The notes: a model not told the origin generated them from the letters alone. 53,408 nt of DNA from Deltaproteobacteria bacterium (GCA_016935665.1 JAFGQN010000011.1:1-53408), one strand, 5' to 3'. Shown: positions 5,686 to 29,082, counted from the first letter of the stretch. Numbers and translations are program-made.

Positions 5686-9641
<3,956 letters not shown>

Positions 9642-9807
9642 TCACGGTGACAGTATAGCGCATTGTGCCCAAAACGAAAATGATTTCCCACAGCTACACT
9701 ATCCTGCTCCCAACGTGAACGATTGTGACGTACAGCTTGACAATCGTATGAATCGATTTCAGACTCCAGCCAGCATTGTCGTAAATATTCCGCAATCGAG
9801 CCTCAAA

Positions 9808-12093
9808 ATGAATATCGAACTTACAATTTTTGTTGCCTCATTCATTTTTCTATTCTGCGCCGCCACATTGATTCGCATCTGGGTAAAAAAGGCGCAGGAA
9901 GCGCGCTGTTTAAATCGGTACAACGCCATTATTCGCCAGGGCATGCAAATTCCGCCGACCCTGCATCCAGTATTCGACGCCACGCGGTGCATCGGTTCGG
10001 GCGCGTGCACAAAGGTCTGTCCCCAGGGAGACGATGTGGTGGGACGCATCCATGGGCGCGGGGTATTAATAGATCCATCCATGTGCATTGGTCACGGACG
10101 CTGTGCGGCGTCCTGCCCCATGGGCGCCATCCGACTGGTGTTTGGTTCAGCGCAGCGGGGCGTTGATATTCCTCATCTGTCGCCCCAATTCGAAACAAAT
10201 GTAAAAGGCCTGTACATCACCGGCGAGCTGGGGGGAATGGGACTCATCGCCAATGCGGTGCGTCAGGCCAAAGAGGGAATATCGAATATTGCCCAAACAC
10301 TCCCATCACGCACCCGCGACGGCGCGTCAACGCAAATGGTGGATGTGGTGATTGTGGGAGCGGGTCCAGCGGGCATCACCAGTGCGCTGGCTGCCATGGA
10401 GCACGGCCTCACGTATCGGCTTTTTGATAAAGAGGCACAGGTGGGAGGCGCCATTCTTCAATATCCGCGAAGTAAAATAGTCATGACACGCCCCATGCAA
10501 CTGCCACTCGTGGGCAATATTCGCGCCACCACCATGAGCAAGGAAGGTTTGGTGGCGCTCTTTAACAAAGTTGTGACAAGGCACAACATCCGTCTGGAAG
10601 GCGGTGTGTATGTTGAAGAGATTCTCCAAAACGCGGACGGGACCTTCTTTGTTACTGCCGGCAGCGAAACCGTCCACACCCGAACCGTGATGCTGGCCAT
10701 TGGTCGTCGGGGCGTTCCCCGGAAGCTCGGCGTTGCGGGCGAACAGCTCCCTCATGTGTGCTACAGCATGATTGAACCGGACCCATTCGTTGGCCGCCGC
10801 GTGCTGGTGGTTGGCGGGGGCAATTCCGCTGTGGAAACCGCCCTGATGCTGGCGGAAGAAAAAGACACCATTGTCCAGCTCTCGTACCGCGACAGCGGAT
10901 TAACAAGCGCCAATGCGGCCAACCGCGACAAATTTGACCGCGCGGTGAAGGATGGCAAAATCAACGCCCTCCCCAACAGCACCGTCAGTGAAATTACCCA
11001 AACCCATGTCCAATTGCTGGTCAACGGCGAAATTAAAACGGTGCCGGTCGATGCGGTCATCATCCAAATTGGCGGGGAACTGCCCACCGCAATGCTCCAT
11101 CGGATTGGCGTCTCCATTGAGCGCCATTTTGGGGAAGAAATCGAACAGCACCGTAAGATAGACAATGCAAAAGAAATCTTTACCCATATCCGCAACCAGC
11201 GTCGCGCAAAGGGATTGCAGAATTTTCATGTGACCCCCGCTTTCCCTCCGGTCTGGCTCAAGTGGGTGATGGGCCTTTTGGGAGTGGCCGCCCTGCTGTT
11301 CCTGTTTTACGCGGGGCGGGAGTACTATCTGGCGTCAGATACCATGAGACGCGACAATGACGCACTTCGCATCTTCAGCGCGTCCGGCGCAATGGGTCAC
11401 CGGCTGGGGATTTGGGCCGCTGTGCTGATGCTCATTAACGTCAGTTATTTTGCGCGCAAGGAACTGCGAACGCTCTCCCGTTTGGGGAATATACAAACGT
11501 GGATGTTTTTCCACCAGCTGAGCGGATTGATAGTGGCCACTATGGTCCTTTTGCATACAGGTCTGATTTTAAACAACGCATTCGCACTGGCGCTGTACAT
11601 CAGCCTTGGCATCGTGGTTGGAACAGGCATCATTGGTCGAACCTTTTTTACCATGGTCCCCATCGATCCTCGCGGACGGCCGCTGACCCACGCAGCACTG
11701 GTGGACCTGTCGGCACGAATGAAAAAAAGATACACCGATTTATTCGGCAGACTGGACCAGGCCATAAAGGTGAACCGCATTCTCGATTTGAGTTACAAAC
11801 CCCAAAGGCCGTGGTTCAGTCTGTTGTTTCGACTGTTTACCATCTGGCCGTATCGATATGTTCAATTGATGACAATCCTTTTTACTGCCCAAAAAAGAAT
11901 GAAAACCGCAGCGGAATATCGCTCGTTCAAACGCTACTCCCTCGAAATGGCACGGCTGCGCCTGCAATTGGAAATCTCTCCACGCATAAAGGGCGTTCTT
12001 CAACTGTGGCGTTCCGGTCATGCGCTCCTCGCGCTGATGACCATCACTCTGGTAGTGATTCACATTTTTGTGGAGATATGGCTGGGATACTAA
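9808..12093 (+). CDS. Membrane Fe-S/FAD oxidoreductase with cytochrome-b-like domain
   Basis: From the ATG at 9808 (chosen because a membrane helix, IFVASFIFLFCAATLIRIW, starts at once; the frame is open to 9613) the protein has 761 residues. Order: N-terminal TM anchor; two ferredoxin-like motifs (C61-x5-C67-x3-C71-P and C93-x5-C99-x3-C103-P); a thioredoxin-reductase-type flavoprotein with an FAD site VIVGAGPAG near 181 and an NAD(P)H site VLVVGGGNSA near 332, but no redox-active CxxC; then from ~485 about five TM helices rich in His (GHRLGIW, FHQLSG, LLHTG, GHALL, VVIHIF). The helices suggest b-heme binding. I infer a cytoplasmic NAD(P)H or ferredoxin oxidoreductase that hands electrons to the periplasmic cytochrome 2 bp downstream. 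Confidence 0.8.
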   Translation: MNIELTIFVASFIFLFCAATLIRIWVKKAQEARCLNRYNAIIRQGMQIPPTLHPVFDATRCIGSGACTKVCPQGDDVVGRIHGRGVLIDPSMCIGHGRCAASCPMGAIRLVFGSAQRGVDIPHLSPQFETNVKGLYITGELGGMGLIANAVRQAKEGISNIAQTLPSRTRDGASTQMVDVVIVGAGPAGITSALAAMEHGLTYRLFDKEAQVGGAILQYPRSKIVMTRPMQLPLVGNIRATTMSKEGLVALFNKVVTRHNIRLEGGVYVEEILQNADGTFFVTAGSETVHTRTVMLAIGRRGVPRKLGVAGEQLPHVCYSMIEPDPFVGRRVLVVGGGNSAVETALMLAEEKDTIVQLSYRDSGLTSANAANRDKFDRAVKDGKINALPNSTVSEITQTHVQLLVNGEIKTVPVDAVIIQIGGELPTAMLHRIGVSIERHFGEEIEQHRKIDNAKEIFTHIRNQRRAKGLQNFHVTPAFPPVWLKWVMGLLGVAALLFLFYAGREYYLASDTMRRDNDALRIFSASGAMGHRLGIWAAVLMLINVSYFARKELRTLSRLGNIQTWMFFHQLSGLIVATMVLLHTGLILNNAFALALYISLGIVVGTGIIGRTFFTMVPIDPRGRPLTHAALVDLSARMKKRYTDLFGRLDQAIKVNRILDLSYKPQRPWFSLLFRLFTIWPYRYVQLMTILFTAQKRMKTAAEYRSFKRYSLEMARLRLQLEISPRIKGVLQLWRSGHALLALMTITLVVIHIFVEIWLGY

Positions 12094-12095
12094 TC

Positions 12096-14747
12096 ATGAA
12101 GCGCAACAGACAACGCAAAATGCACCTTGTCTTTCTGATTTCGACTGTTTTCAGCATGTCCATCAGCATCAGTGGCAACGCTGCGGGGCAGGTATTTTCC
12201 CCAGGAAAACTCTCCAATGCACACGCCCAATGGGACTCCCTGAACCATTGCGACAAATGCCACACGCCAGGCCAAAAAATCGATCGTCAAAAATGCCTCA
12301 CGTGTCATCGGCCGCTGGCAGAGCGCATTCGAAAGCAACAGGGATTTCACGGTCAAAAACAGATTCGAAAGCAGCGATGCGAAAAATGTCACCCGGAACA
12401 TCGTGGCCAGGAGGCGTCACTTGTGGACTGGACCAAATCCAGTATCAGTGGCGCCCCGCCCACTTCAAAAAAACAGTTCGATCACTTGCAAACGGGCTGG
12501 CCCCTTAAGGGCGCCCATGCCAAAGCGGAATGTGCCGACTGTCATCAGTCACGACGTATAAAAGATGCCAAAGTCCTTGCGTACCTCAAAACAACTCGGG
12601 ATGCGGAAACGTTTCAGGGACTGTCCACGGCGTGTATCGACTGTCATTTCGATGAACATCGAGGGCAGCTAAAAGCCGCCTGTGACAAATGCCATACCGA
12701 AAAATCGTTCAAACCAGTATCGAAATTTACTCACGACAAGTATTGGAAGCTGGAAGGTGCTCATAAAAAGGTCCCGTGCATCAAATGCCATCTTGAACAA
12801 ACCGATGCCACGTATTCTCAAAAAGCGTTTCCAAAGCCCCGGGCGGCAACGTACCTGAAAATGAACGGTATTCCCCATGACAGCTGCACAGACTGTCACA
12901 CCGATGCCCACCACAATCGTTTTGGCAAGAATTGCCTGTCCTGTCACAACGTCAACAGTTGGGTCATTGATACGCCCACACGGGACCTCTCTTTTCACAA
13001 TCGTACGGATTTTCCGCTTTTGGGACGTCATCGATTTGTGCCCTGCGAACGTTGCCATCCCCGCAATGCGAAGGGCAACATGAAGCTGACCCCCATTGCC
13101 CATGAGCGATGCAACACCTGCCATCCCAACGCACACCCGGATTTTTCGCCTGCCCATTATTTGAAACGCGATTGTGGTGAGTGTCACACCAATGGGGGGT
13201 TCGCCCCCTCAAAATTCACCCTGAACGACCATCAAAAGACAAAATTTCCATTATCCGCGCCCCACCAGACGGTGGCCTGTCCGGTGTGTCATCTCAACAA
13301 AATGGGCCAGCCCGTAACCGATACCGGTTCTAAAAAGCTGGCCGGATTCACGGCGAAAAGAGTGCTGTCCAAATGGCGACTCATATCCGATGTGGCCCCA
13401 CAGAAATGTGATCGCTGCCATGCGTCCCCCCACAGAAGTCAGTTTGCTGGACAACAGTGCACCAATTGTCACAACGGCACATCCTGGCGAATTGATGCAA
13501 CCACATGGCAACACGAAAAGCACAGCACCTATGCACTCAAAGGTCGCCACAAAAAGGTGGCCTGCGCCAAATGCCATCTGACAGAATCCGATTTGGACGG
13601 AACATTCGTGCGTTATCGCCCCATCGACCATGCGGATTGCACCCCCTGCCATGGCGACCACCATCTGGGACAGTTTCGCCTGCTCTCTCCCAAAAAGAAA
13701 TGCAGCAACTGCCATGAGGAAAAGGGATTTGCGCCGAGCAAATTTGATCACAACAATCCGGCATTCTGTACGTTCCCCCTCAGGGGAAAGCACCTTAAGA
13801 CCCGTTGTATCAAGTGCCATCCAAGGACCACACTGGCGGACGGAGTGTCCACCATTCGCTATCGGCCCACGTTGAGTGACTGTGATCTGTGCCACGCGGA
13901 TGAACACCGGGGCGCGTTTAGCAAAGCCGCCACTGTGCAGCATCGACCCAACAGTGCGATACCATCCGCAGGAACATCCCCCCCCAACGCGCGCGATTTA
14001 TGGGGCGCACCGAAAAACTGGTTTCCGCCTCAAAGCACCCGTACCGATTGCAGTGCCTGTCATAAGGAATCCGGCTGGCACGATGTGCAATTCGATCACT
14101 CCCAAACAACATTCCCCCTCAAAGGGCATCATCGCCAGGTGCCCTGCGACCAATGCCATAAAAAAGACATCAGCACGCCGTTGCCCCTCAATTGCGTGGG
14201 GTGTCACGAAGATGTGCATCGCGGCAGTCTGGGCGCCAACTGCGCGGAGTGTCACAACGAAGAAGGCTTCCGCAATACATCCCCCGCGGTACTGGCCAGA
14301 CACAATCGCACCCGATTCCCGCTGGTGGGCAGACACGCGGCGCTGCCCTGCACCGAGTGTCATCGGGATGCCAATGGACGGGAGTTTCAAAAAGTGCCAA
14401 CGCAGTGTGTTGCCTGCCATGCAAAGGATATTCCCGCACCTGGCCAAACCAGCGTGGATCACAGCGCCATCCACATGGCCTGCGATCGCTGCCATACGCC
14501 CGTGAGTTGGAAAACAGCCGCCTTCGAAGGACATGACCGCTGCTTCCCCATTGGGACATTCAGCAAACACGGTTCGGTGAGTTGCACAAAATGCCATCAG
14601 GGCGCTCCACCATCATCATTGTCAGACTGTTCCACAGGCACATTCTCGTGCCGTCAATGCCACGGGTGTCAAACGGCGCGTCACAGAGGCGTGCCAGGTT
14701 ATGCCTGCGAAGACAGGAGGTGCTACGAATGCCATCGAAATCCCTGA
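12096..14747 (+). CDS. Periplasmic 30-heme c-type cytochrome
   Basis: The ATG at 12096, two bases after the upstream stop, gives 883 residues with a signal peptide (basic start, then HLVFLISTVFSMSISISG and NAA before the mature part). I count 30 CxxCH heme-binding motifs, the last at the C-terminus (CYECH), so the protein is nearly all heme-binding. Eight copies of a motif like FPLxGxHxxVxCxxCH recur every ~70-110 residues, and the conserved His before the Cys pair is a likely distal heme ligand. This modular plan suits a long electron wire across the periplasm. The frame extends 199 codons further upstream, but that part lies antiparallel in sense to nothing and simply overlaps the previous gene in another frame, so I excluded it. 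The downstream beta-barrel gene overlaps by 19 bp. Confidence 0.93.
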   Translation: MKRNRQRKMHLVFLISTVFSMSISISGNAAGQVFSPGKLSNAHAQWDSLNHCDKCHTPGQKIDRQKCLTCHRPLAERIRKQQGFHGQKQIRKQRCEKCHPEHRGQEASLVDWTKSSISGAPPTSKKQFDHLQTGWPLKGAHAKAECADCHQSRRIKDAKVLAYLKTTRDAETFQGLSTACIDCHFDEHRGQLKAACDKCHTEKSFKPVSKFTHDKYWKLEGAHKKVPCIKCHLEQTDATYSQKAFPKPRAATYLKMNGIPHDSCTDCHTDAHHNRFGKNCLSCHNVNSWVIDTPTRDLSFHNRTDFPLLGRHRFVPCERCHPRNAKGNMKLTPIAHERCNTCHPNAHPDFSPAHYLKRDCGECHTNGGFAPSKFTLNDHQKTKFPLSAPHQTVACPVCHLNKMGQPVTDTGSKKLAGFTAKRVLSKWRLISDVAPQKCDRCHASPHRSQFAGQQCTNCHNGTSWRIDATTWQHEKHSTYALKGRHKKVACAKCHLTESDLDGTFVRYRPIDHADCTPCHGDHHLGQFRLLSPKKKCSNCHEEKGFAPSKFDHNNPAFCTFPLRGKHLKTRCIKCHPRTTLADGVSTIRYRPTLSDCDLCHADEHRGAFSKAATVQHRPNSAIPSAGTSPPNARDLWGAPKNWFPPQSTRTDCSACHKESGWHDVQFDHSQTTFPLKGHHRQVPCDQCHKKDISTPLPLNCVGCHEDVHRGSLGANCAECHNEEGFRNTSPAVLARHNRTRFPLVGRHAALPCTECHRDANGREFQKVPTQCVACHAKDIPAPGQTSVDHSAIHMACDRCHTPVSWKTAAFEGHDRCFPIGTFSKHGSVSCTKCHQGAPPSSLSDCSTGTFSCRQCHGCQTARHRGVPGYACEDRRCYECHRNP
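14715..14720 (+). promoter_or_regulatory. Ribosome binding site deciding the beta-barrel start
   Basis: AGGAGG lies 8 nt before the ATG at 14729, inside the last codons of the cytochrome gene. It favours 14729 over the ATG at 14747, which overlaps the cytochrome stop as TGATG but has no ribosome site of its own. Confidence 0.75.
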
Positions 14748-16480
14748 TGCTTCCGGCAACTGCTCGCGCCGCCCTGGCAATGGCGATAATCGCGATATGC
14801 GTAGCCATTTTTATGGCGTCCACTGCATTCGCCCAGCAATTCCATACGGATGTGTTGGTTACGTATGTGAGCCCAACTCAGATATATCTCTCCGGCGGGA
14901 AGGACGCCGGCATTTTCACTGGCGACAGCGTGACCATCATGCGCAATGGGGAGACGATTGCCAGGGGATTGATTGACAAGACAAGCGACACCGGCGCCGT
15001 GGCAATCCTGATCGCATCAAAGACACCTGTTCGGGAGGGCGACATCATCGTACCCATGTCCCACAGCCGCGACGAAAACAAACGAGCCCTGCCCCAAACG
15101 GCCCGCCGACACCGCGAATCCCCGCCCAACTGGAGCAATCAACAACTTCAAACCCAATGGCAGCAATCGCTTGTGGATGATCCGCCTGTCAAGGTGGTCT
15201 ACAATGGCACATCCAGACGACAGTCGCCAGGCGAAACTCTTTCTGCGGCGGTGGCGACCGAAGTGCGACAGTATTCATACTTTCAAAGCAGCCAATATTT
15301 GCAGACAGAACAAACCGTTTGGTTTTCCGTTCACGGCGCCAATCTGTGGCAACCGGGTCTGGCCTTTGCCATTGACGGCTCGGTAAGGGGACGATACGAC
15401 AATCACGACGATGCGTATTTGAACTCCCGGCGTGCGATTCCGCTCATTCGAACACTGGCCCTCACCTATCGCATGCGGCAGTATCCGTTTGTGACCACCC
15501 TTGGCCGATTCACACCCAATGCGCCAGTGGTGCACACCATTGACGGGCTATCCACCGAACTTGAGTCCCGGCGGTTCGCCATCTCGCTGTTTGGCGGGTT
15601 GCAACCGGACGAAGAAGACCTGATGGTTAACGTCCACAGAACGGTATTTGGCCTGGCATCCCGCTTGTCACCGGGAAAAACGGGCCGATACACGGTGGAG
15701 ACGGTTGCCATGGCACAGATGTATAAAAGTCATTTTTATCGCGCCGCCATTGGCATCAACAATCGATATTTCCGCCCCAGTGGCTTTCATTTTACCCAAA
15801 GTGCGGTGCTGGATCTTCTCTCGACCCAAAACACTGAGCACTCAAAGGGGGACGTGACGCTGTCCAGAGCCGCGGTGGACGCGGTGTGGCCCATTCGCAA
15901 ACGGGTGGGTCTGGACCTTCATGCCCGCCACATTGACAATGTTGTATTTTCAGAGGATGGTTCGTTCCTGCCAAAGGAATGGCTGACGTCGGTCTCCCAC
16001 TCCGGAAGTACCCGGTTGGAAACGGGTCTCAGCGTGAAATCAAAGAGAAACAACCTGCTGCGACCGTACATTTTTGGTCTGGGCGATTTGACGTCCGGCA
16101 GTTATGATGGCGCTCTTGGCGGTGTGGGATTCAGCGTTGAAGACAAAACGCTGTTTTCGTCAAGAACCGGCATTCTGACGGTTGTGGATTACGGCATCGG
16201 CACGGGGCAGCGCGCCAACATTGATGTCACCTTGAACACGCCATTAAAAAACAGCCGATTGTATCTGTTGAGCGGTTTGTTCACCACCTGGAACTGGGTT
16301 TACGAGTCCGATGTGCATACCCTTCGAAACCTGGCCTTTGCGATGCTTCGCGGACAACTCAAAAGAAACTTCGACATAACCGCCAACTGGCAGGTGGGCT
16401 ACGACCACGCGCTGGTGCGTCTGACGTATCCCTTTGGTGTTTGGATGCAATTCCAGCTGGGCATTACCGCACGTTACTGA
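14729..16480 (+). CDS. Probable outer-membrane beta-barrel of the electron conduit
   Basis: The 583-residue protein has a signal peptide (hydrophobic AALAMAIIAICVAIFMAS, then TAFA before QQFH). Residues ~40-100 form a small beta domain (VSPTQIYLSGGKDAGIFTGD, VTIMRNGETIARGLI) like the SH3-like module of FlgT-type proteins. A Gln/Arg-rich stretch follows. From ~residue 175 the sequence alternates polar and aromatic residues and ends ...FQLGITARY, with a terminal aromatic typical of outer-membrane barrels. I infer a ~18-22-strand barrel that could sheath the 30-heme cytochrome, as MtrB does for MtrA, although sequence similarity to MtrB is not evident. The stop lies 1 bp from the stop of the convergent sulfatase gene, leaving no room for a separate terminator. 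Confidence 0.65.
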   Translation: MPSKSLMLPATARAALAMAIIAICVAIFMASTAFAQQFHTDVLVTYVSPTQIYLSGGKDAGIFTGDSVTIMRNGETIARGLIDKTSDTGAVAILIASKTPVREGDIIVPMSHSRDENKRALPQTARRHRESPPNWSNQQLQTQWQQSLVDDPPVKVVYNGTSRRQSPGETLSAAVATEVRQYSYFQSSQYLQTEQTVWFSVHGANLWQPGLAFAIDGSVRGRYDNHDDAYLNSRRAIPLIRTLALTYRMRQYPFVTTLGRFTPNAPVVHTIDGLSTELESRRFAISLFGGLQPDEEDLMVNVHRTVFGLASRLSPGKTGRYTVETVAMAQMYKSHFYRAAIGINNRYFRPSGFHFTQSAVLDLLSTQNTEHSKGDVTLSRAAVDAVWPIRKRVGLDLHARHIDNVVFSEDGSFLPKEWLTSVSHSGSTRLETGLSVKSKRNNLLRPYIFGLGDLTSGSYDGALGGVGFSVEDKTLFSSRTGILTVVDYGIGTGQRANIDVTLNTPLKNSRLYLLSGLFTTWNWVYESDVHTLRNLAFAMLRGQLKRNFDITANWQVGYDHALVRLTYPFGVWMQFQLGITARY

Positions 16481-16481
16481 A

Positions 16482-18731
16482 TCACAACTTCGGCTGTGGC
16501 ATTTTGGCGAGGGCCCCATCTTCGTAATCCACCGCCAAAATGGGCCGAAATTCGGTGGCCAGGAATAAATCGTACGCATCTTTCACCCTGGCATAGTCGG
16601 CGGGATGCGACTTTTCGAGCGAATCGCCATATTCTCCCTTATCGGCCAGATTGTAAAAGCGTATCGCGCCGGTCTGATCCAGCAAATGCAACTTCCAGCC
16701 ATCGAAAATGAACACGCGCCGGGATTCGTACATTTCGTTCTGGCGCAAATCGGCAAACACGTAGGGCATTTGCAGTTCCTGACCGGGTACCCAATCCGCC
16801 AGCAGACTTTGGCCATGGGTCCCCTTTGGTACGGGAACGTCAAACAAATCGAGCAGTGTGGCATACATATTGATAGCACTGGTGGGTCTGGCAATCCGTT
16901 TGGACGTAAGGCCCGGGCCCACAATCGCCAGGGGGATTTTAATATTTTCCTCGTACAGTTCGTATCCGTGCAGCCAGCGGCCGTGCTCGTTGAAGGACTC
17001 GCCGTGGTCGGCGGACAAAATCACCACCGTTCTTTTGTCCAGACCCAGCTCCCGGAAGGTATCCAGAACCTTGCCGATGTAAAAATCGGTAAAGAGCACC
17101 TCGTGGTCGTAGCCATCCCGTCGGCTGGTACCAAATTTTTTAAATCCCTCGTGTTCGAGATAGTCCCCATGGGGATCCATGAAATGCACCCACATAAAAA
17201 AACGCCCCGAGGTGTTTTTGGGATCCTTCAGCCACTTTATGGCAATCCGGGCCACATCGGGGGAGGTGAACTGTTTGGCGGAATTCACGGTGTTGGTGGG
17301 CTGCCCCGTCACAAACTCCCAATGTTGAAAGCCCTGGTGCCAGCCATAAAACGGCCGGAACAGAAAGTGACTCATCAGCGCGCCGCACATGACCGTTGGA
17401 CCGCATATCCGTTCGGCGGCAAATGTTTCATCCAGCCCCACACGAAGCTTATGCGCTTTGCTGCGGTGCAGCTCACTGGGATACTTGCCGGTCATCAGAG
17501 CGGGGATGGACTGTGATGTATACGAACTGATGGAATAAGCGTTTTCGTAGATGACCCCGTCCTTAAACATTTTGTCGATATTGGGAGTCACGTCTCGCTC
17601 GTAGCCCATGAACCCCGGCGCGTCCGCGCGCAAGGCATCCACGGTTATCAGCAGTACGGATACATCTTTGGGCAATGTTGGCTTTTCAAGTGTCTTTTTG
17701 GGGGCGCCGCCGGGCTTGTTTACCCGTCCAGCGAGTTCATTGAGATTCAGATCCGCACCGGAGCAGTCTTCATCAATTCGGTTGTCCGGAATCTCTCTGG
17801 CGCCCGGATAAATAGTACCGTCGCTGTCGTTGCAGTCGCGACCACCGAACCACCGGGCATGCCCGTCGCCGTCTTTATCGCCAATCCGCCGAAGCACTTT
17901 GCCAGACAACATGGCCAGTCCGCCCACATCGTTAACACGCTCCACCATCACGGGATTATGTTTCGACACCTGGAATGCCAGCAACGGTGGAACGAGAATC
18001 AGCACACCGGATACGCTGCCGGTAATCCAGAGGGTATTGGCCCTGAGGCGCTTGCGGACAAAAAAATAAAAAACGAGCGATACCACGATTACCGCCAGCA
18101 TGACAAACAGCGGTTGGGCCCCCAATCCATCCAATTTGAATAAACTCATAAAGGCAAACGGATTGCCTGTGCCACTGTCTCCAAAAATATATCCGTAACC
18201 CATCGCCACCGTCCAGATGAGCGCCACACCCACCAACGCATTGACCGGTATGGCGGCGCGGGATGATGCGCCCATGCGTCGCATCGCCCATAATCGCAAC
18301 AGGATGTAAACGCGCCCGCCAACAAGTCCCAGCAGTACAATACATATCAGCAGTGTCATCAGCAATGCAAACGCCGCCAGTCCCATGTGGTGAAAACGCG
18401 TCATGTAAAATACGGTTGTAAAGTAAAATAGTGGCATTGCCACAAGTCCCATGGCGCCCGTTGCGCCAATTGCCGCAAACAGCGACGCGTTGGGAGTGAA
18501 CAGCAACCGTCTCCAGTCCGCGGACCGCACTCCTTCAGGTAGCATCCAAACCAATGCCAACAGGGAGCCCGCTAAAACCATGCCCAACGGAATTAACAAT
18601 CCGGTTGTAAACACCATTACGGCTGGAGCGCTCCACATCCCTGCCAACCATCCCTCGGCAATACCGGCAATACCCCCCGACGCCGCACCACACACAACCG
18701 CCAGCAGCAGCGCCCGTATAAATTTGTGCAT
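16482..18731 (-). CDS. Seven-TM membrane sulfatase-fold enzyme with calcium-loop motif
   Basis: From the ATG at 18731 (AGG 9 nt upstream; an in-frame TTG at 18740 is the alternative) the protein has 749 residues. About seven TM helices fill residues 5-260. Next is a short motif, DKDGDGH...GGRDCNDSDGTIYPGA...DEDCSG, of the MopE-type metal/calcium-binding kind seen in myxobacterial secreted proteins. A sulfatase/alkaline-phosphatase-superfamily domain follows from ~345: VDALRAD for metal, SSYTSQSIPALMTG around the nucleophile, ADHGESFNEHGRW for metal. No C-x-P-x-R formylglycine site is present, so it is more likely a phospho- or sulfo-group transferase/hydrolase using Ser or Thr, acting in the periplasm. 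Substrate unknown. Confidence 0.75.
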   Translation of the reverse strand: MHKFIRALLLAVVCGAASGGIAGIAEGWLAGMWSAPAVMVFTTGLLIPLGMVLAGSLLALVWMLPEGVRSADWRRLLFTPNASLFAAIGATGAMGLVAMPLFYFTTVFYMTRFHHMGLAAFALLMTLLICIVLLGLVGGRVYILLRLWAMRRMGASSRAAIPVNALVGVALIWTVAMGYGYIFGDSGTGNPFAFMSLFKLDGLGAQPLFVMLAVIVVSLVFYFFVRKRLRANTLWITGSVSGVLILVPPLLAFQVSKHNPVMVERVNDVGGLAMLSGKVLRRIGDKDGDGHARWFGGRDCNDSDGTIYPGAREIPDNRIDEDCSGADLNLNELAGRVNKPGGAPKKTLEKPTLPKDVSVLLITVDALRADAPGFMGYERDVTPNIDKMFKDGVIYENAYSISSYTSQSIPALMTGKYPSELHRSKAHKLRVGLDETFAAERICGPTVMCGALMSHFLFRPFYGWHQGFQHWEFVTGQPTNTVNSAKQFTSPDVARIAIKWLKDPKNTSGRFFMWVHFMDPHGDYLEHEGFKKFGTSRRDGYDHEVLFTDFYIGKVLDTFRELGLDKRTVVILSADHGESFNEHGRWLHGYELYEENIKIPLAIVGPGLTSKRIARPTSAINMYATLLDLFDVPVPKGTHGQSLLADWVPGQELQMPYVFADLRQNEMYESRRVFIFDGWKLHLLDQTGAIRFYNLADKGEYGDSLEKSHPADYARVKDAYDLFLATEFRPILAVDYEDGALAKMPQPKL

Positions 18732-18840
18732 ATCCGTCAACCTGTATAATAAATAAAATTTGTATTCATGAGTGCGTTAAAAGGTTTAGCTGAGAGCTGT
18801 AACACAATTCTTTTTATTTGTGCACGTGAAAAACTCCGGA

Positions 18841-21048
18841 CTAATACCCCATGCTCTCGCGGGGATTGGAGGGAATATCCATCACGCCGCGTTCACGCAT
18901 GACGAGGTGCAGTTCGTGGGTTAATACCGGTGATCGCTCCGCGATGCGACGCAAATCCGCCCCTGCAATTCGAAATGCCGACAGGGATGTGCGGGCAATC
19001 ACCGAGGCATTTCGACGACTGCTGTATCCCATGGCAACGTTCTCTCCAAAAAAGTCACCGGGCCCCAGTTCATCCTCCAGCGTCTCGCCGCTGCGCGAGC
19101 GTTTCACCACATTGGCCATTCCGGAAAGAATCACATAAAAATCATCGGACTTGCCCCCCTGTCTTAAAATATGCGTACCCTGGGGATATTCCCGTTTCTC
19201 CGCCAGCAATGATATTTCATGTTTGGCATGGGGATGGAGGTTTCGAAACAGTTTCACTCTGGAGATTACTTCACGGGATCCCCAAAGGCGTTCAAATCGC
19301 GCCTTCAGCCCATTGGCTTCCACAAACTCAAGGAAAATATCTCCAGGCAGCCGAAAAAGGACACAGGCCGATAATGTGCGAAAAGAGGCGTTTCGCTTCA
19401 CATCCCGAATAATTGACATTTCCCCAAAAAAATCACCGCTCTCCAGCATGGCAATCTGTTCGGGCGTTTCGCCGTTCAAATCCAGTATTTCACCACTACC
19501 CGAGAGGATGAAATAAAAGCCGTCCCCATGGGCGCCCTGATCGATCACATCCACCGAAGGCCCCACTTCCATCACCTTCCCCTGGGAAAACACCACATTT
19601 ATCCAAAACAGATCCGACACATCCAGAAGCTTCATGGTCTTTAAAAGCTTCAACACCAGCGATTGGGCCATCGAATTGCATTCCAGATACGTTTTTCCCC
19701 ATCCCGGCGTTTCCACAGGAAACCGCGACGTATCCACTTTGTCCGGATTAACATGGTAAAACAGAAAGTCAGTATCTGGATTATTCAAAATATCCGATGC
19801 AAAATCCGATGGCTCGCCATGAATCGGGGGACCGCCGCCATCAATCATCACCAGCCGCTCCCCGCCCTGCACCAGTTGTTTCATGCGTTTGCATTTGGCT
19901 TCCGTTATGGCTCCCTGAGCGGTCATTTCATCAAGTCTGGCAAACCCCGCCGTATCGCTGCTGTGCACAATAGTATGCAACCGCCCGTCGGGTCCCTGAA
20001 CGGACACGCGAAACCCCACCGTTGGGATGGAGTGAACGGTATAAAAGAATTCCCACTGAGCCCCGTACATATTGAATATCTTCCCAGGAATCACTTCGGT
20101 AAACGTCAAATAATTCCGAATCACATCCGTGGATTCACCCAGCACATTGCTGGTTTTAATTAGCATGGACTCATATATTTCCCGTGTGGTGATAATATTT
20201 GCCGTCTGCTCCGACAATATCATGTCCATAAGGGTGCAGTGATCATCGTGCACGTGGGACAGGATGACGCCCGCAAGGTCCGACTTGGGAATTCCCAGCC
20301 GGCGCAGATATTCCGAAGTTCCCACCGGTCCATCCACGAGGAATCCATTGCAGTTAATCCACATCACCATACCCGTCGTCGGCCCTTCCGTATCGAATCC
20401 AGAGTAGGTGCCCAACAGTTTCACGCGCAATATTTGCGGGATTTCCGGCTGCATTTCAGTATCCACGCTAATGGGGAGTTGCTCCCCTTTGAAATGCAGG
20501 TCAATCAGGTGACTCGTCTTTGGGGTGTTCAACCGATACTGATTTTCGCCCATATGGGTGACCGTTGGCCCTTCCTCCCACAACGGAATACCCGAAGTCG
20601 CCGCGTCCGGCAATATTACGAACTCCAGCATGTCATCCAGCTGCAGTGGCCGACCGTCGTTTTTCAGCGCCATGTAGTCCATCATTTTGGAAAGTGTTTG
20701 AATACGCCGTTTAGACACCTTCCAGCTCTTCATCTGTTCGCGAGAGGGACCATAAAGCGTTACCATCATTGTTTCCCGCACACGCTGACACATCTGAGCG
20801 GTGCCAATGACGCGGAAGCGGCAATTGCAATCGCGTGTATCGAAAAACAAATGCCAGTACGCCAGAAATTCGAGCGCAATTTGAGATACACCGTTGACGT
20901 AACCCAAATCCGGCAGAACGACCACGCGAGGCATCTTTCGCCCTGCTCTTAAAACGAATTTCAGAATCTCGGGCGGCGCGCCAAAAAGAACGGCATCATT
21001 ACCATCCTGATAATGACAACATCCGGGCAGAATCTGTTGAATATCCAT
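18841..21048 (-). CDS. Metallo-beta-lactamase-fold protein with two cNMP-binding domains
   Basis: The 735-residue protein begins at an ATG (21048) with GAGG upstream. Residues ~215-460 hold a metallo-beta-lactamase fold: SHVHDDHCTL (the HxHxDH site), a following HSIPTVGF His and HSSDTAG Asp, and DGGGPPIHGEPSDF. Residues ~490-600 and ~615-720 are two cyclic-nucleotide-binding domains, each with the G-[ED]-x-F-G-E core (SGDFFGEMS and PGDFFGENV). The fold and domains suggest a cyclic-nucleotide-controlled hydrolase, possibly a phosphodiesterase acting on the nucleotide that binds it. The N-terminal ~210 residues are unassigned. No signal peptide, so it is cytoplasmic. The gene sits 100 bp upstream of the sulfatase-fold gene on the same strand. 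Confidence 0.8.
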   Translation of the reverse strand: MDIQQILPGCCHYQDGNDAVLFGAPPEILKFVLRAGRKMPRVVVLPDLGYVNGVSQIALEFLAYWHLFFDTRDCNCRFRVIGTAQMCQRVRETMMVTLYGPSREQMKSWKVSKRRIQTLSKMMDYMALKNDGRPLQLDDMLEFVILPDAATSGIPLWEEGPTVTHMGENQYRLNTPKTSHLIDLHFKGEQLPISVDTEMQPEIPQILRVKLLGTYSGFDTEGPTTGMVMWINCNGFLVDGPVGTSEYLRRLGIPKSDLAGVILSHVHDDHCTLMDMILSEQTANIITTREIYESMLIKTSNVLGESTDVIRNYLTFTEVIPGKIFNMYGAQWEFFYTVHSIPTVGFRVSVQGPDGRLHTIVHSSDTAGFARLDEMTAQGAITEAKCKRMKQLVQGGERLVMIDGGGPPIHGEPSDFASDILNNPDTDFLFYHVNPDKVDTSRFPVETPGWGKTYLECNSMAQSLVLKLLKTMKLLDVSDLFWINVVFSQGKVMEVGPSVDVIDQGAHGDGFYFILSGSGEILDLNGETPEQIAMLESGDFFGEMSIIRDVKRNASFRTLSACVLFRLPGDIFLEFVEANGLKARFERLWGSREVISRVKLFRNLHPHAKHEISLLAEKREYPQGTHILRQGGKSDDFYVILSGMANVVKRSRSGETLEDELGPGDFFGENVAMGYSSRRNASVIARTSLSAFRIAGADLRRIAERSPVLTHELHLVMRERGVMDIPSNPRESMGY

Positions 21049-21353: not shown

Positions 21354-21638
21354 ATGCAAACCATCTCAATAGTGGAACCTTTAACTGTGTTAAATATCCG
21401 TTCCGCACATAAAATCATCAGCGATGCCGTCGCGAAAAACACGGATGGCGTTGTTGTTGACTTGAAGGATGTAAGCGATTGTGACACCAGCGGGGTACAA
21501 CTCGTCATCGCAGTATGGAAATACGCAGCAAACAAAAATCGGAAAATCGATTTTAAAAACATTTCAGACGCAGTGGCGAACGCTTTTTCAATTGTTGGGA
21601 TAGACGACATTAATGACTTTTTTAGCGCGAAGGAGTGA
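21354..21638 (+). CDS. STAS-domain protein of the chemosensory operon
   Basis: The 94-residue protein is one STAS domain of the anti-sigma-factor-antagonist type, cytoplasmic. It has the alternating beta/alpha pattern and the loop DCDTSGVQLV, which corresponds to the phosphorylatable Ser/Thr-Gly loop of SpoIIAA. A good AAAGGAG ribosome site precedes the ATG. It heads the cheY-cheA-mcp-cheW-cheR-cheB cluster. Single STAS proteins open several deltaproteobacterial chemosensory operons, where their role is unclear; no anti-sigma kinase is encoded in the window, so a partner within the receptor array or CheA is only inference. Confidence 0.85.
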   Translation: MQTISIVEPLTVLNIRSAHKIISDAVAKNTDGVVVDLKDVSDCDTSGVQLVIAVWKYAANKNRKIDFKNISDAVANAFSIVGIDDINDFFSAKE

Positions 21639-21646
21639 GGTGGAAA

Positions 21647-22012
21647 ATGACGAAAACGATCATGACCGCTGACGATTCCGCAAGCATGCGGCAGATGATA
21701 ACGTTTACGTTGAAGCAGGCCGGCTACGACGTGGTGGAAGCAGAGGATGGCAAAGATGCGTTGTCAAAAGCGGAATCGGGCAGCATCGACATGCTGATCA
21801 CGGACTTGAATATGCCCAATATGAATGGCATGGAGCTGATTCATGCCATACGCCAGATAGAAAAGTACAAGTTTATTCCTATCATTATGCTGACCACTGA
21901 ATCCGACGCGGAAAAAAAACAGCAGGGCAAACTGGCTGGCGCCACCGGATGGTTGGTGAAGCCGTTTCAGCCACCACAACTGACGGCTGTGATAAAAAAA
22001 GTGTTGCGCTAA
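21647..22012 (+). CDS. cheY: CheY-type response regulator
   Basis: A single receiver domain of 121 residues. The phospho-acceptor is Asp53 (ITDLNMPNMNG), the acidic pocket is TADDS near the start, and Lys in WLVKPFQPPQ is the conserved Lys. Receiver-only output fits a CheY that binds the flagellar motor or another effector. A GTG at 21635 in frame is possible, but the ATG at 21647 has GAGGTGG before it and starts at the family's usual position. The gene lies 8 bp after the STAS gene and is followed at once by cheA. Confidence 0.93.
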   Translation: MTKTIMTADDSASMRQMITFTLKQAGYDVVEAEDGKDALSKAESGSIDMLITDLNMPNMNGMELIHAIRQIEKYKFIPIIMLTTESDAEKKQQGKLAGATGWLVKPFQPPQLTAVIKKVLR

Positions 22013-22028
22013 AATGAAAGGCACTGGC

Positions 22029-24140
22029 ATGAACTCGCCGCAAAGTTTTAAAGATGCGTTTATTGCAGAAGCGGAAGATCTATTGGTAGAAATAGAGGAA
22101 TGTGTTCTGGACATTGAAACCAATCCGGAAGACATGGATGCTATTAATCGCCTGTTCCGCGCGATGCACACCATAAAAGGCTCCGGAGCCATGTTTGGCT
22201 TTGAAGACATTGCATCCTTCACCCATCATGTGGAAACGGCACTCGACTTTGTGCGTGAAGGCAAGCTGAAAATCTCAACCAAATTGATTAACATGGTTCT
22301 CAAGTCCAGAGACCATATTAAAGCAATGCTGGAACATTCGCAAGGCGGCCCCGTTGTTCGTGCATCGCAGACAGAAGACCTCATTAAGGTAATCGAGTCT
22401 TTGATTCCCAACAAACTGAAGAATCAACCACCCCGGGAAACCATAGTTCCAAGCATGCTTCCCAAAACGCCAACTCCTGTGGAAAAAGTGTTTCGAATCA
22501 GTGTCAAACCTAACGAGAATATCTTTTCATTTGGAATGGATCCGGCACTATTGGTGGAGGAGCTGCGTCAACTGGGGGAATGCACGGTGACGCCGTATAC
22601 CGGAAGCATCCCCACACTGGACCAAATTGCCCCGGTGTCCTGTTATATCCACTGGGACATCATCCTTTTTACCAATTTTGATGAAAACGCTGTGAGGGAT
22701 GTATTCATTTTCGTCGAAGACGAGTGCGAAACCAAAATTCTGGATATTTCAGACAACCGGGACGATATTCCAAAAGTTGGGGAAATTCTTGTCAGCAAAG
22801 GCGATACCACGAAGGAACAGGTGGAAGATGCGCTCAGAAGACAGAGCAGAATTGGCGATCTGTTGGCGCAGACCAGCGGCATCCCAAAAGAACGAATAAA
22901 GTCGGCATTGGCGGAACAAAAAACACTGGAAAGAAAGAAAGCCGCCAGCCAGCAGGAAACAGTGAAAGTGGCCGCTGAAAAACTGGATGCACTGGTAAAT
23001 CTGGTTGGGGAGCTGGTAATTGTCCAGGCGCAGCTAAGCAGCATCTCAAGACACGTGAACGCGCCTCCGCTTCAGACATCCGTTGAAGAAATAGAACGAC
23101 TGATTAGCGAACTTCGGGATGTAGCGCTGAATGTGCGCATGATGCCCATCGGAACCACTTTTGCCAAATTTCGGCGGCTGGTTCGGGATTTGTCTTCAGA
23201 ACTGGGCAAGGAAATCAAGCTGGAAACCGAAGGTGCTGAAACTGAAATGGACAAAACCGTTTTGGATAAACTGGGAGACCCATTGGTGCATCTGATACGC
23301 AACAGTATTGACCACGGCGTTGAATCGCCTGATGTGCGTCTGGCATCCGGAAAACCATCGACGGGAACCATTCGGTTGGCTGCCCAGCACCGTGGCGCGA
23401 AAGTGGTCATTTCCATCACGGATGACGGCAAAGGGCTGGATGTAGACAAAATCTTAAAAAAAGCCCAGGAGCGGCAACTCATTCCCAAAGACGCGGATTT
23501 GTCGGAAAGAGAAATTTACAATCTCATTATGGCGCCGGGATTCTCAACCGCCGAACAAGTATCCCAGGTTTCCGGTCGCGGTGTGGGAATGGATGTAGTA
23601 AAAAAACAGATTGAGGCGCTTCGGGGCAGTGTGTCGATACAAAGCGACACAGGCAAAGGCACGCATATCGAGCTGTCCCTGCCACTCACACTGGCAATCA
23701 TTGATGGTCTTTTAGTGGAGGTAGATGAGGACAAATACGTTATCCCGGTGAACTCAGTGGAAGAATGCCTTGAATTAACCGAATCCAGCAAGGCAATGGA
23801 TAAGTCCAGAAATCTTTTGAAGGTTCGCGGAGAACTTGTGCCGTTTGTTCGGTTGCGCGAAGTTTTTGGTATCAAGACAAAAGAGTCCAAACTGGAAGAA
23901 GCCGTTGTGGTGGAGATGGGAGACTCCCGCATTGGCATCGTTGTGGACAGAATCGTGGGCGATCACCAGACGGTTATCAAATCTCTGGGCCATTTATATC
24001 GAAATGTGCAGGGCGTTTCTGGTGCAACCATTATGGGCGACGGGAATGTTGCCCTGATTGTGGATATTCCAAGTCTGGCGTCCATCGCAAACATTGATGA
24101 ACAACAACATTTGCAACAGAATCGATCAGTAATCCAATAA
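22029..24140 (+). CDS. cheA: Chemotaxis sensor kinase CheA
   Basis: CheA autophosphorylates on His and passes phosphate to CheY and CheB. I chose the ATG at 22029 (703 residues) because AAAGG stands 7 nt upstream; an ATG at 22014 lacks a site. Order: Hpt domain with His47 ([10 protein letters not shown]); a P2-like segment of the deltaproteobacterial type ([17 protein letters not shown] to [10 protein letters not shown]); a [20 protein letters not shown] stretch; dimerisation helices ([19 protein letters not shown]); the HATPase domain with [18 protein letters not shown] and GRGVGMDVV; and a C-terminal CheW-like domain. All catalytic boxes are intact. It lies between cheY and the receptor gene. 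Confidence 0.95.
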
Positions 24141-24153
24141 AGGGGGAAAAGGC

Positions 24154-26565
24154 ATGAAAAATAAATTAGATTCAGTTTCAAATCCAACCACAGAAGGAGA
24201 CGGTTTTTCGCTGAGTTCGGTGCAGAAGTGGTTAAAAAATGTGCCCATCGCCATGAAGATTTCAGGAATGGGGCTTGCAATAGCGGCAATGTTTATCGTT
24301 TTTATTTTTGGATGGGTTCTGCCATCGGCTAAAGACGGTATGTTGGACAAAAAGAAAAATAAAATTCAGGAACAGACACAGCTGGCATACAGCATCGCAG
24401 AGAGTTACTACGAACGCGCAAAGAAAGGCGAAATGACCGAAGACGAGGCAAAAAGGGCGGCCAGCGAACAGATAGGCGCATTGCGTTACGGCCCAACCAA
24501 CAAAGACTATTTCTGGATAAATGACACACGCCCGTACATGGTCATGCATCCTTTTTCACCCCAGCTCAATGGCACCGATCTGTCTGGCAAAGTCGATTCC
24601 AGCGGCAAATACATGTTTAAGGATTTCGCAAAGGTGGCAAAGGAGAAAGGGGGGGGATTTTCGGAGTACATGTGGCAGTATCTGGATCAAAAAGATAGGA
24701 TTGTCCCAAAAATATCCCATATCGCCTATTTCAAACCATGGGATTGGTGTATTGGCACAGGGATGTACATAGAAGATATCAATGAGGAGATGGCGGCATG
24801 GGCCAACAGTCTCATCTGGATAATATCGCTAATATCCATCATTGCAGTTGTTGCCGCTTTCCTGATGGCTTCCACCATCGCCAAAAGAATAAAACAGGCA
24901 GCAAAGGCGATGAACGCTGTGGCCGTTGGCAATATGGACTACAAACTGACGACGGACAACGACGATGAAATTGGTTCGATGATTAAGTCGTTCAACAAGG
25001 TGGTCGGCAGCATCAGGGAAATCATAGCGGCCATCACACAGAATACCGTTGATATTCAACACGGGCACCTCACCATGCGCGCGGACGATTCCCCATATGA
25101 AGGTGGCTGGAAAAATCTGGTTGCAGGCATAAATACACTCAGCGACGCCCTGGTTGGACACATCGCGCAGATTCCGTCTCCGGTATGGGTTTTGGATAAG
25201 AACGCCAAAGTCATTTTTGCAAACGACATTATGCTGGAGTTACTTGGAACCACTCAAAAAGAGATACTTGGGACAAAATACAACCGCCATTTCCAGGCTG
25301 GCAGTTATTCTGAAAATATCGATGTTGTGGGGACAGCGTTGCAGTCCGGGCAATCCGAATCAGGCAGGGGCGAAATCATAGTGAAGGGCCGCAAATTTGA
25401 CATGAATTTTGTAGCGTCCCCCATATTTGACGAAAAAAACGACCCCATTGGCGTTGTTGAATTTGTTGTGGATCAGACAGAAATTAAAAATGCCGCTCGT
25501 CGAACGGAAAAACAGGCGGAATACCAATCCGCGCAGGTTGCGACACTGCTGAAGGTGCTTGACGAAATTTCAAAAGGAAATCTACTCGTCTCAATGACCG
25601 TGGGCGAGCACGATGAAGACACGCAGGATATCGCCGCAAACTTCACAGCAATAAAGAGCACTATCGATTCAATGCTGAAAAATCTCTCAACGTTCGCCAA
25701 AGAGGTTCAGGACGCGGCACATCAGGTTATTCTTGGATCCAATCAAACCAATATTGCCACCCAGGACATGGCTCAGGGCGCCACGGAACAGGCTGCCAGC
25801 ATAGAAGAAATTTCCAGTTCCATGGAGCAGATGAGCAGTACGGTCAAACAGAATGCAGACAACGCACAGCACACAGCGACCATTGCGGAGAAAGCGGCAG
25901 ATGACGCCATAAAAGGGGGTGAAGCCGTTGAAGAGACCCTGACGGCAATGACCAATATTGCGGAGAAAATCACAATCATCGAAGAGATTGCCCGACAAAC
26001 CAATATGTTGGCGCTGAATGCGGCCATTGAAGCGGCCCGGGCAGGCGAACATGGCAAAGGGTTTGCTGTTGTTGCAGCGGAAGTCCGCAAGCTGGCGGAA
26101 AGAAGTCAAATAGCCGCACAGGAAATTGGCGTTCTTTCTTCGTCCAGTTTACAGGTATCGGAGCAGGCAGGCGCGCTCCTCAAGGAGATAGTGCCGGTCA
26201 TTCAGCGGACCAGTGAACTGGTGAAGGAAATCAACGCGTCGTCATCTGAACAGGCATCTGGTATTGATCAAACCACCCACGCAATTCATCAGCTGGATCA
26301 GGTCATTCAGAAAAACGCCGCCGGCGCGGAAGAAATGACAGCGACCAGCAGTGAACTGCAGGACCAGGCGGAACACCTGGCGGAATCGGCATCATTCTTT
26401 AAAATTTCGGACGAACCTTCCAGTAAACGTCGCGGGAAACAGGTTCGGAGTCCAAAGGCGACGCCAGGGACGTCCGGGAACGAACCCAGTCGAAAAAGTG
26501 GGTCAAGGGGAATTGAGTTAAGTCTGAAATCAGATGACGAAGAAGACAGTTTTGAAAGGTTCTAG
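24154..26565 (+). CDS. Cache-HAMP-PAS methyl-accepting chemotaxis receptor
   Basis: The 803-residue receptor has a first TM helix ([17 protein letters not shown], near residue 45), a periplasmic single Cache_2-type domain ([16 protein letters not shown]), a second TM ([20 protein letters not shown] near 215), a HAMP domain, a PAS domain ([18 protein letters not shown]), and a signalling region with the canonical hairpin tip [20 protein letters not shown]. Cache_2 domains often sense small organic acids. The signalling domain is followed by ~50 basic, Ser-rich residues and an acidic tail ending DSFERF. That tail fits a CheR/CheB tether (see finding). The gene starts 13 bp after cheA. Confidence 0.95.
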
Positions 26566-26569
26566 CATC

Positions 26570-27112
26570 ATGGGTGATATCAGTTTAAACACAAATCAAT
26601 ACCTGACATTCAGATTAGGGCAGGAACATTTCGCACTGGAAATATCACGAGTGCGGGAAGTGCTGGACTATATCCACATCACCAGGGTTCCCCGTACCCC
26701 GGACTTTATGTTGGGAGTTATCAACCTGCGAGGCAATGTTGTACCGGTGATAGACCTCCATCTCAATCTGGGGATGGAGCCAGAGGACCGAACAGTGAAC
26801 ACGTGTATCGTGATTGTGGAGATTGACCTCGGCCATGAACTTCTGCAGCTTGGAGCTCTCGCGGATTCTGTAGAGGAAGTGGTGGAAATTGATTCCGACA
26901 AAATCAGCCCGCCTCCCAGACTGGGTATCCGACTGAATACGGAATTCATAAAGGGGATGGGAAAACGGAATGATGATTTCGTCATCATACTCGACATGGA
27001 CAAAGTGCTTACCGCGGAGGAAATCGAAGAGGTGGAGATTGCCGCCTCGGTGGTCCCCACAGATTTGCTGGAAAAAGGAAGTGGCGGCGCGGAATCGGAA
27101 AATAGTGTGTAG
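26570..27112 (+). CDS. cheW: CheW coupling protein
   Basis: A 180-residue CheW domain protein that links CheA to receptors. Motifs include YLTFRLGQEHFALEISRVREV and PDFMLGVINLRGNVVPVIDL, the standard CheW signature. I start at the ATG at 26570, 4 bp after the receptor stop; a 12-codon in-frame extension to 26534 would overlap the receptor and has no support. AAAGG stands 10 nt upstream. The C-terminus has an extra ~20 residues (PTDLLEKGSGGAESENSV) beyond the fold. Confidence 0.93.
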   Translation: MGDISLNTNQYLTFRLGQEHFALEISRVREVLDYIHITRVPRTPDFMLGVINLRGNVVPVIDLHLNLGMEPEDRTVNTCIVIVEIDLGHELLQLGALADSVEEVVEIDSDKISPPPRLGIRLNTEFIKGMGKRNDDFVIILDMDKVLTAEEIEEVEIAASVVPTDLLEKGSGGAESENSV

Positions 27113-27117
27113 CAGTG

Positions 27118-27972
27118 ATGCAAGAGGGAATTCCAGAGGAACAGCTTCTTTCTCCGGCGTTATTTGCCCATTTTCAAAAACTGATTTACAAATCCTGCGG
27201 TATTTCGCTGGCGGATAGCAAACGAACAATGCTGTCGGTTCGATTATCTAAAAGATTGTCGGCCCTTCAGCTGCAGACGTTTGAGGAATACCTGGAGTAT
27301 GTCGGCAACGTTTCCCATATCGATAATGAATTCCTCGAATTCCTGAATGTAGTGACCACGAACAAAACCGATTTTTACAGGGAAAGGCATCACTTCGAAT
27401 TCCTGACCAACGACATAATTCCGGAACTTCTGGCGCGCAAACAAATTTCCAAAGACAAACCTCTTCGCATATGGAGTGCCGGTTGTTCATCTGGTGAGGA
27501 GCCCTACACCATCGCCATGGAAGTGGCCGAAATTCTGGGACTGGACAGTGGCGCATTTGAAGTTCTGGCCACAGATATCTCCACCCGTGTGTTGAACCAG
27601 GCCATTGGTGGTGTTTACGCAGAGGAAAGTATTGCCCCTATTCCCGAAAAGCTCCGGCACAAATACCTGATGCGCGGCAAAGGGAAATACAGCGGACGCT
27701 ATAAAGTGGTACCGGAAATCCAGACGCATGTCCGGTTCAGTCGTCTTAACTTCACTGCGGCCAATTACAATATCACGGAGCAGATGCACGTTATTTTTTG
27801 TCGTAATGTCCTGATTTATTTTGATGTTAAGACCAAAGCCTACATCCTGAATAAAATTTGTGACCAGTTGGTCTCACACGGACACCTTTTCATAGGTCAT
27901 TCCGAAACGTTGGTACCGCAGGAATACCGTCTGGAACGCGTGCTTCCCACGGTGTACCAGAACATAAGGTAA
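27118..27972 (+). CDS. cheR: Chemotaxis protein methyltransferase CheR
   Basis: CheR methylates receptor glutamates using S-adenosylmethionine. The 284-residue protein has the N-terminal helical domain (FAHFQKLIYKSCGISLADSK, KRLSAL), the catalytic start TTNKTDFYRERHHFEFL, the SAM motif IWSAGCSSGEEPYTIAM, and IFCRNVLIYFD near the end. All are standard. A GTG at 27115 precedes the ATG at 27118 and the true start could be either; there is no clear ribosome site, so it may rely on coupling with cheW, which ends 5 bp before. Confidence 0.94.
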   Translation: MQEGIPEEQLLSPALFAHFQKLIYKSCGISLADSKRTMLSVRLSKRLSALQLQTFEEYLEYVGNVSHIDNEFLEFLNVVTTNKTDFYRERHHFEFLTNDIIPELLARKQISKDKPLRIWSAGCSSGEEPYTIAMEVAEILGLDSGAFEVLATDISTRVLNQAIGGVYAEESIAPIPEKLRHKYLMRGKGKYSGRYKVVPEIQTHVRFSRLNFTAANYNITEQMHVIFCRNVLIYFDVKTKAYILNKICDQLVSHGHLFIGHSETLVPQEYRLERVLPTVYQNIR

Positions 27973-27984
27973 AAGGGGTTTACC

Positions 27985-29082
27985 ATGAAGAAGATCAAAG
28001 TATTGATCATAGATGATTCCGCAGTAGTTCGGCAAACAATGAAAGGCATTCTCGAACAGGATCCGGATATTGTCGTTATCGGTACGGCCGGAGATCCATT
28101 CATTGCCGCATCAAAACTACGTCAGGAGAGGCCGGACGTCATCACGCTGGACGTGGAGATGCCGCGGATGGATGGATTGACGTTCCTGCAAAAATTGATG
28201 CACCAGCACCCTATTCCGGTCGTTATGTGTTCAAGTCTCACCGAGCGGGGCGCCGAAACAGGCATAAAAGCGCTGGAACTGGGGGCGGTGGATATTATCA
28301 CAAAGCCCAAAATGGGAGTCCAGCAGTTTCTGGAAGAAGCCCAAATCACTATTTGCGATACAGTAAAAGCAGCTGCAGGCGTGATTCCAGGAAAACTGAA
28401 TAAACGACACTCCCATCCGGGTATTTCCGCCCTGTCGGTAAAACCAAAATTAACCGCCGATGCTGTGTTACCGGCGCCTGGCTCCCAGGCGATGATTCAA
28501 ACAACAGAGAAGGTGGTGGTGGTGGGAGCGTCCACCGGCGGCACAGAGGCGTTGCGCGTGTTCATCGAAGCGCTGCCCAGACACTCACCAGGGATTGTAG
28601 TGGTGCAGCACATGCCTGAAAAATTCACTACATCATTTGCCAAACGACTGGATTCTCTCTCGGTGGTGAATGTGAAAGAAGCACAGGACAATGATACCGT
28701 TATTCCCGGCCATGTACTCATTGCCCCTGGTGGTACGCGCCATACAATGCTAAAAAGCAGCGGGGCCAGATATTTTGTATCTCTTAAGGAAGGTCCTCTA
28801 GTGACTCGACACCGTCCATCAGTGGACGTATTATTTCGCTCAGCGGCGCGCTACGCCGGAAAAAACGCCATTGGCATTATCATGACCGGTATGGGGGATG
28901 ATGGCGCCCGGGGGATGAAGGAGATGAAGGATGCGGGCGCATACAATATCGCCCAGGATGAAAAAAGCTCCGTTGTTTTTGGTATGCCCAAAGAAGCCAT
29001 TCGCCACGGCGGAGTGGACACGGTAATTTCGCTGGATGAAATTGCCCGCCATCTTATGCAAACGTTTGAAAAGATGAAATAG
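27985..29082 (+). CDS. cheB: Chemotaxis methylesterase CheB
   Basis: CheB removes methyl groups from (and deamidates) receptors once phosphorylated by CheA. The 365 residues hold a receiver domain (Asp56 in [12 protein letters not shown]) and a C-terminal esterase domain with the triad Ser183 (GASTGGTEA), His209 (VVQHMPEKF) and Asp306 (MGDDGARGM). Both domains look intact. AAGGGG stands before the ATG. It completes the adaptation pair with cheR directly upstream. Confidence 0.95.

Follow-up and report, generated by a model that had tools for sequence, protein, structure and literature searches.

Three adjoining genes at 9808-16480 of the window (the whole stretch of 53,408 nucleotides that was analysed) raise the question of how electrons could cross a complete cell envelope, from which donor and in which direction. 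The original prediction, made from the sequence alone, read these genes as a trans-envelope conduit between cytoplasmic NAD(P)H or ferredoxin and the cell surface, working outward or in the reverse direction. A described system to be compared is PCC3, the putative porin-cytochrome c complex 3 (He et al. 2017, PMC5566968). Its inner-membrane protein (IMP) has about 300 aa, five TM helices, two WX3HX13H motifs as the hallmark and an SGXXG motif, and was likened to ferric reductases and NOX and guessed to be quinone-active (PMC5566968). PCC3 conduits are widespread and include some of the largest known cytochromes. PCC3 has been described as functionally unverified (PMC12442390), and no experiment on the activity of any PCC3 was found in the literature searched.

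Gene organization of the locus

The operon contains the following genes.

9808..12093, + strand: gene 1, 761 aa, a fusion of an N-terminal TM anchor, two Fe-S motifs, a FAD/NAD(P) flavoprotein and a PCC3-type inner-membrane di-heme b protein (IMP)
12096..14747, + strand: gene 2, 883 aa, a secreted c-type cytochrome with 30 hemes (30 CxxCH; Cytochrome_C7, E 2.4e-28)
14729..16480, + strand: gene 3, 583 aa, with a signal segment, a small beta N-domain (about 40-110) and a predicted outer-membrane barrel (about 168-583, about 20-22 strands)

The reading frame of gene 1 is open over 9613-12093, and the ATG at 9808 is the best start. Its TAA (12091-12093) is followed by "tc" and then by the ATG of gene 2 at 12096, while the ATG of gene 3 at 14729 falls 19 bp inside gene 2. 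The start and stop positions thus bear out the 2-bp gap and the 19-bp overlap of the original prediction.

The source genome is a fragmented assembly, which was placed nearest to Myxococcota in an rpoB tree with weak support. The operon is patchy within the family of this genome and is missing from one genome of the same genus. In another genome of the family (G010; L018:1-2027), a flavoprotein fragment joins a barrel 45% identical to gene 3 and the IMP and cytochrome are absent, owing either to a true deletion or to misassembly. Barrel fragments in two frames in a genome of the same genus (G002; L019:9238-9562) are apparently the remnant of a lost operon. Such a distribution could mean that the operon is inactive or decaying in the window lineage as well. 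Against this, all three window genes are full length and stop-free, retain every heme, Cys and His ligand, and have a GC3 that is ordinary for the window; we consider decay quite improbable.

The other genes of the window near the operon and further downstream are as follows.

16482-18740, convergent with gene 3: membrane-anchored sulfatase-like protein with a MopE-type metal-binding motif
18841-21048: one protein that combines a metallo-beta-lactamase-like domain with two cyclic-nucleotide-binding domains behind it
21635-29082, downstream of the operon: chemotaxis cluster (response regulator, CheA-like kinase, Cache-PAS receptor, CheR, CheB)
37375-53169: polysaccharide export and sugar biosynthesis cluster (ABC transporter, Poly_export, glycosyltransferases, RgpF)

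Domains of gene 1

Gene 1 is divided into three parts behind its anchor.

9988..10116, + strand: two Fe-S motifs, residues 61-103, C61xxS64xxC67xxxC71P and C93xxH96xxC99xxxC103P (Pfam Fer4_10, 5.6e-11)
10339..11127, + strand: FAD/NAD(P)-binding domain, residues 178-440, with GAGPAG and GGGNSA motifs and Y360-R361 (Pyr_redox_3, E 2.4e-34)
11233..12090, + strand: TM domain corresponding to the PCC3 IMP, residues 476-761, five TM helices, with W565x3H569x13H583, TGxxG at 606-610 and W734x3H738x13H752

The Fe-S motifs are non-classical. Each has three Cys, with Ser64 or His96 where the usual second Cys would stand, so the classical four-Cys set is incomplete, which counts against the electron path proposed below. 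The six Cys are invariant in 92/92 relatives and His96 is found in 91/92, while position 64 is S, C or T; a His-ligated or 3Fe cluster is possible. The flavin domain, for which the Pfam search also matched Pyr_redox_2, is YpdA-like, and its top PDB matches were thioredoxin reductase, YpdA/Bdr and ferredoxin-NADP reductase. It belongs to the thioredoxin reductase/YpdA type without the redox disulfide, having a single Cys. The second Rossmann motif (GGGNSA) is followed by Y360-R361, a pair that would favour NADPH as substrate.

The C-terminal 286 residues gave a five-helix model with pLDDT 91. Both WX3HX13H motifs are exact, and TGxxG replaces the SGxxG of the PCC3 consensus. Their four histidines are invariant across 63 to 74 relatives (H569 and H583 in 74/74, H738 in 70/70 and H752 in 68/68 ungapped relatives). 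The predicted inner-membrane Fe-S/FAD protein with a His-rich TM domain is therefore matched with the Pfam domains and these four His. Between TM4 and TM5 of the IMP there is a helical insert of about 100 residues (11689-11997, residues 628-730), which is predicted to be cytoplasmic. Because the TM domain contains no Cys at all and the flavin domain only one, a thiol relay by gene 1 was rejected.

The fold link of the IMP to the FRD superfamily and STEAP is weak. Ferric_reduct (PF01794) scored 17.1 bits, below the cut-off of 28; model comparison with VIA-align placed STEAP4 (Z 7.3) and Dcytb (Z 7.0) amid unrelated helical proteins, and Foldseek gave no significant PDB match for the IMP.

The link to PCC3 is direct. 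Amphritea atlantica DSM 18887 is a published PCC3 bacterium with 63- and 21-heme cytochromes (PMC5566968). It is also one of the loci in the present set (L040), carrying the same 63- and 21-heme cytochromes, and the TM domain of gene 1 is homologous to its IMP.

The 30-heme cytochrome and the predicted outer-membrane barrel

Gene 2 has exactly 30 CxxCH in 883 aa, or 29 residues per heme, behind a hydrophobic signal segment (residues 9-29), as expected for the secreted 30-CxxCH cytochrome first proposed. Two modules were recognised.

12150..13922, + strand: 20-heme module, residues 19-609, homologous to the stand-alone 20/21/24-heme periplasmic PCC3 cytochrome (phmmer q19-609, end to end, up to 445 bits)
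14043..14744, + strand: 10-heme C-terminal module, residues 650-883, matching the second cytochrome, which is a separate gene in Myxococcaceae

Judged by these alignments, gene 2 is a 20+10-heme fusion, and the homologues of the 20-heme module include the Amphritea atlantica (L040) cytochrome. A sequence search of gene 2 against solved structures gave no useful match, and the DmsE match (29.7 bits) was far under the cut-off of 192.2. The 53-kb window has no second multiheme gene; when the rest of the genome was searched for an extracellular cytochrome there were no matches, but gene 2 itself was missed too, so this blank carries no weight. In G018 (L017:3477-6026), a second relative of gene 2 lies upstream of rpoB without an adjoining flavoprotein.

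Gene 3 has a hydrophobic signal segment at residues 16-34 and ends with Tyr, which agrees with the signal-peptide protein with a terminal aromatic residue in the original prediction. No Pfam family matched it. Its AlphaFold model had pLDDT 73, over 90 in the best part and lower near the C-terminus, and outer-membrane barrels made up 50/50 among the PDB matches listed for this model (Z 14.8-17.4). Iterated profiles collected 49 barrel homologues, and nearly all were at the cluster position beside relatives of gene 1, although position was not a search criterion. Gene 3 is thus predicted to be an outer-membrane barrel, the outcome sought when structure prediction was proposed as a check. The TM domain and the 20-heme module match PCC3 and the barrel probably does so too, and the system is not wholly new.

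Association of the flavoprotein with the IMP across genomes

The flavoprotein part of gene 1 was used alone as query over named genomes. Its best 80 named loci held an IMP in 73, a cytochrome of at least 8 hemes in 73 and a barrel in 49, with many of the gaps at contig ends. The hosts belonged to Bacteroidota, Ignavibacteriota, Myxococcota, Nitrospirota, Nitrospinota, Thermodesulfobacteriota and Pseudomonadota. In the reverse test, which started from the IMP in 284 genomes of the phylum of the window, a strong IMP was found in 57 genomes, a strong flavoprotein in 54 and both in 49 (Fisher p ~1e-40, uncorrected for kinship), and 43/57 flavoprotein genes were located within 15 kb of an IMP. Some strong-IMP genomes of this set were without a strong flavoprotein. 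In a Pseudomonadota sample, all six strong-IMP genomes (6/6) had the flavoprotein, and the two were at most 9 kb apart in four of them. The co-occurrence of the parts across genomes, which had been suggested as a check, is therefore supported. Weaker IMP matches were seen in G103:C400, G294:C103, G139:C94 and G291:C394. Their open frames have 665-1057 aa, no strong flavoprotein is close by, and they possibly form another IMP fusion family (compare PCC4).

A quick tree was used to read the fusions. The flavoprotein-IMP order occurs in the window, G018, G046, G209 and Myxococcaceae as one clade (SH-aLRT 98). The IMP-flavoprotein order occurs in another family (L165-L167, plus others by shared open frame) as a separate clade (SH-aLRT 99), and in other loci the two are separate genes. 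Fusion on two occasions in opposite orders is strong evidence that flavoprotein and IMP work together. On the sequence evidence, the Fe-S and FAD/NAD(P) flavoprotein with its six Cys and one His is a regular PCC3 partner, adjacent in most loci. This partner is new with respect to the freely accessible PCC3 literature searched, which had no mention of it.

The three-gene form is unusual, since the cluster in most relatives consists of four or five genes, for the TM protein, the flavoprotein, the 20-heme cytochrome, the second cytochrome and the barrel. The nearest relatives, L163 and L164, have a flavoprotein-IMP, a 30-heme cytochrome, an extra 42- or 12-heme cytochrome and a barrel, while the order in Myxococcaceae is flavoprotein-IMP, 20-heme, 10-heme, barrel and 27-29-heme.

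Partner proteins of the relatives reach 63 hemes each. Such a number, together with the thioredoxin reductase/YpdA-type FAD domain, could be taken to mean that the flavoprotein-IMP unit exports reducing power to mature or protect the CxxCH cysteines of its partners, like DsbD/CcdA, and does not serve respiration. This is very improbable in our opinion, as the heme ligands are conserved and the co-inherited barrel would be superfluous.

Proposed electron path and direction

We propose that the operon is a PCC3-like trans-envelope conduit with its cytoplasmic end built in, which probably passes electrons from NAD(P)H to the outside, independent of quinones and in the manner of NADPH oxidase. We infer the cofactors, the electron path and its direction, the preference for NADPH, the heme module inside the barrel and the acceptor as follows. 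The cytoplasmic flavoprotein domain of gene 1 would oxidise NAD(P)H, more likely NADPH, or take electrons from ferredoxin. From the flavin they would pass over both Fe-S clusters to a stack of two b hemes that spans the inner membrane, the heme of H569/H738 near the cytoplasm and that of H583/H752 near the periplasm; positive-inside reasoning suggests these sides and a cytoplasmic flavin/Fe-S part. The 20-heme part of gene 2 would then carry the electrons across the periplasm, and its 10-heme part may pass through the gene 3 barrel to the surface. MtrA, which sits inside MtrB, has 10 hemes, the same count as this part. The further cytochromes of the relatives would be extracellular.

Electrons would flow outward to an extracellular acceptor and bypass the quinone pool. 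Since NAD(P)H has a potential of about -320 mV and the inside-negative membrane potential favours electron exit, the outward path is downhill. The fusions in two opposite orders support the link to NAD(P)H in the cytoplasm. Electrons flowing inward to NAD(P)+ would have to overcome the redox potential as well as the membrane potential, and the reverse direction left open by the original prediction is thermodynamically disfavoured. As NADPH oxidase does, export would draw on the membrane potential. Energy gain at this step is therefore less likely than redox balancing or the use of an abundant extracellular acceptor.

The published model runs the other way: an extracellular donor such as Fe(II) would deliver electrons through the IMP to the quinone pool (PMC5566968), and the flavoprotein would be an accessory or a later quinone-to-NAD(P)+ link. 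PCC3 is present in iron oxidisers (PMC10734462), which agrees with that model, and quinone reactions are frequent among di-heme b proteins. Electron exchange between the IMP and quinones is still possible. However, the flavoprotein is too regular a partner, fused to the IMP in two orders, to fit easily; the uphill step to NAD(P)+ also counts against it, and most hosts in the present set are not known as iron oxidisers. In addition, ES-1 down-regulates its PCC3 on Fe(II) (PMC8788666), which says nothing on outward flow. We regard inward flow as unlikely and retain the outward path from NAD(P)H.

The inner end of PCC3 has so far been guessed to be quinone-linked. The fused gene 1 gives it a concrete inner partner and predicts that the electrons come from NAD(P)H or ferredoxin and not from quinol. 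If this is true, the assumed direction of PCC3 changes from iron oxidation to outward flow, and the operon may offer a compact three-gene part for bioelectronics. It is evenly balanced, in our judgement, whether a route for respiration or redox balancing that is independent of quinones is widespread, in at least seven phyla, with an NADPH-oxidase-like flavoprotein/di-heme b unit that is wired directly to giant outer-membrane cytochromes and discharges NAD(P)H to extracellular acceptors. If that route exists, the window would be its most compact form.

Comparison with known systems

MtrAB, MtoAB and PioAB likewise combine a periplasmic multiheme cytochrome with an outer-membrane barrel, but the inner-membrane donor of the window is not a CymA-type quinol dehydrogenase. 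An MtrAB/MtoAB assignment was rejected, because 0/41 barrels had an MtrB-type Pfam match and DmsE/MtrA stayed far under the cut-off.

The FRD superfamily (NADPH oxidase, ferric reductase, STEAP) uses b hemes to take electrons of NAD(P)H and flavin across a membrane, as proposed here for gene 1, and NOX and ferric reductases bind two b hemes by HX13H pairs (PMC5566968); the matches of the window are weak in sequence and fold. It differs in having a flavoprotein of thioredoxin reductase type with putative Fe-S clusters, and the electrons would end on a multiheme cytochrome and not on O2 or Fe(III) at the membrane.

PCC3 is matched in its defining parts. Both have, in one cluster, an IMP with two WX3HX13H motifs, a periplasmic cytochrome (20-24 hemes in PCC3, or about 20-27 in a wider definition; 20 in the module of the window) and an outer-membrane porin, which in the window is the predicted barrel. 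The conduit first proposed thus stands in its co-occurring parts, its predicted barrel and its NAD(P)H link by fusion, whereas its outer part was already known as PCC3. The window differs from PCC3 in that a separate extracellular multiheme cytochrome gene is absent beside the operon, the 20-heme and 10-heme parts are fused, and the IMP is fused to an Fe-S/FAD/NAD(P) domain.
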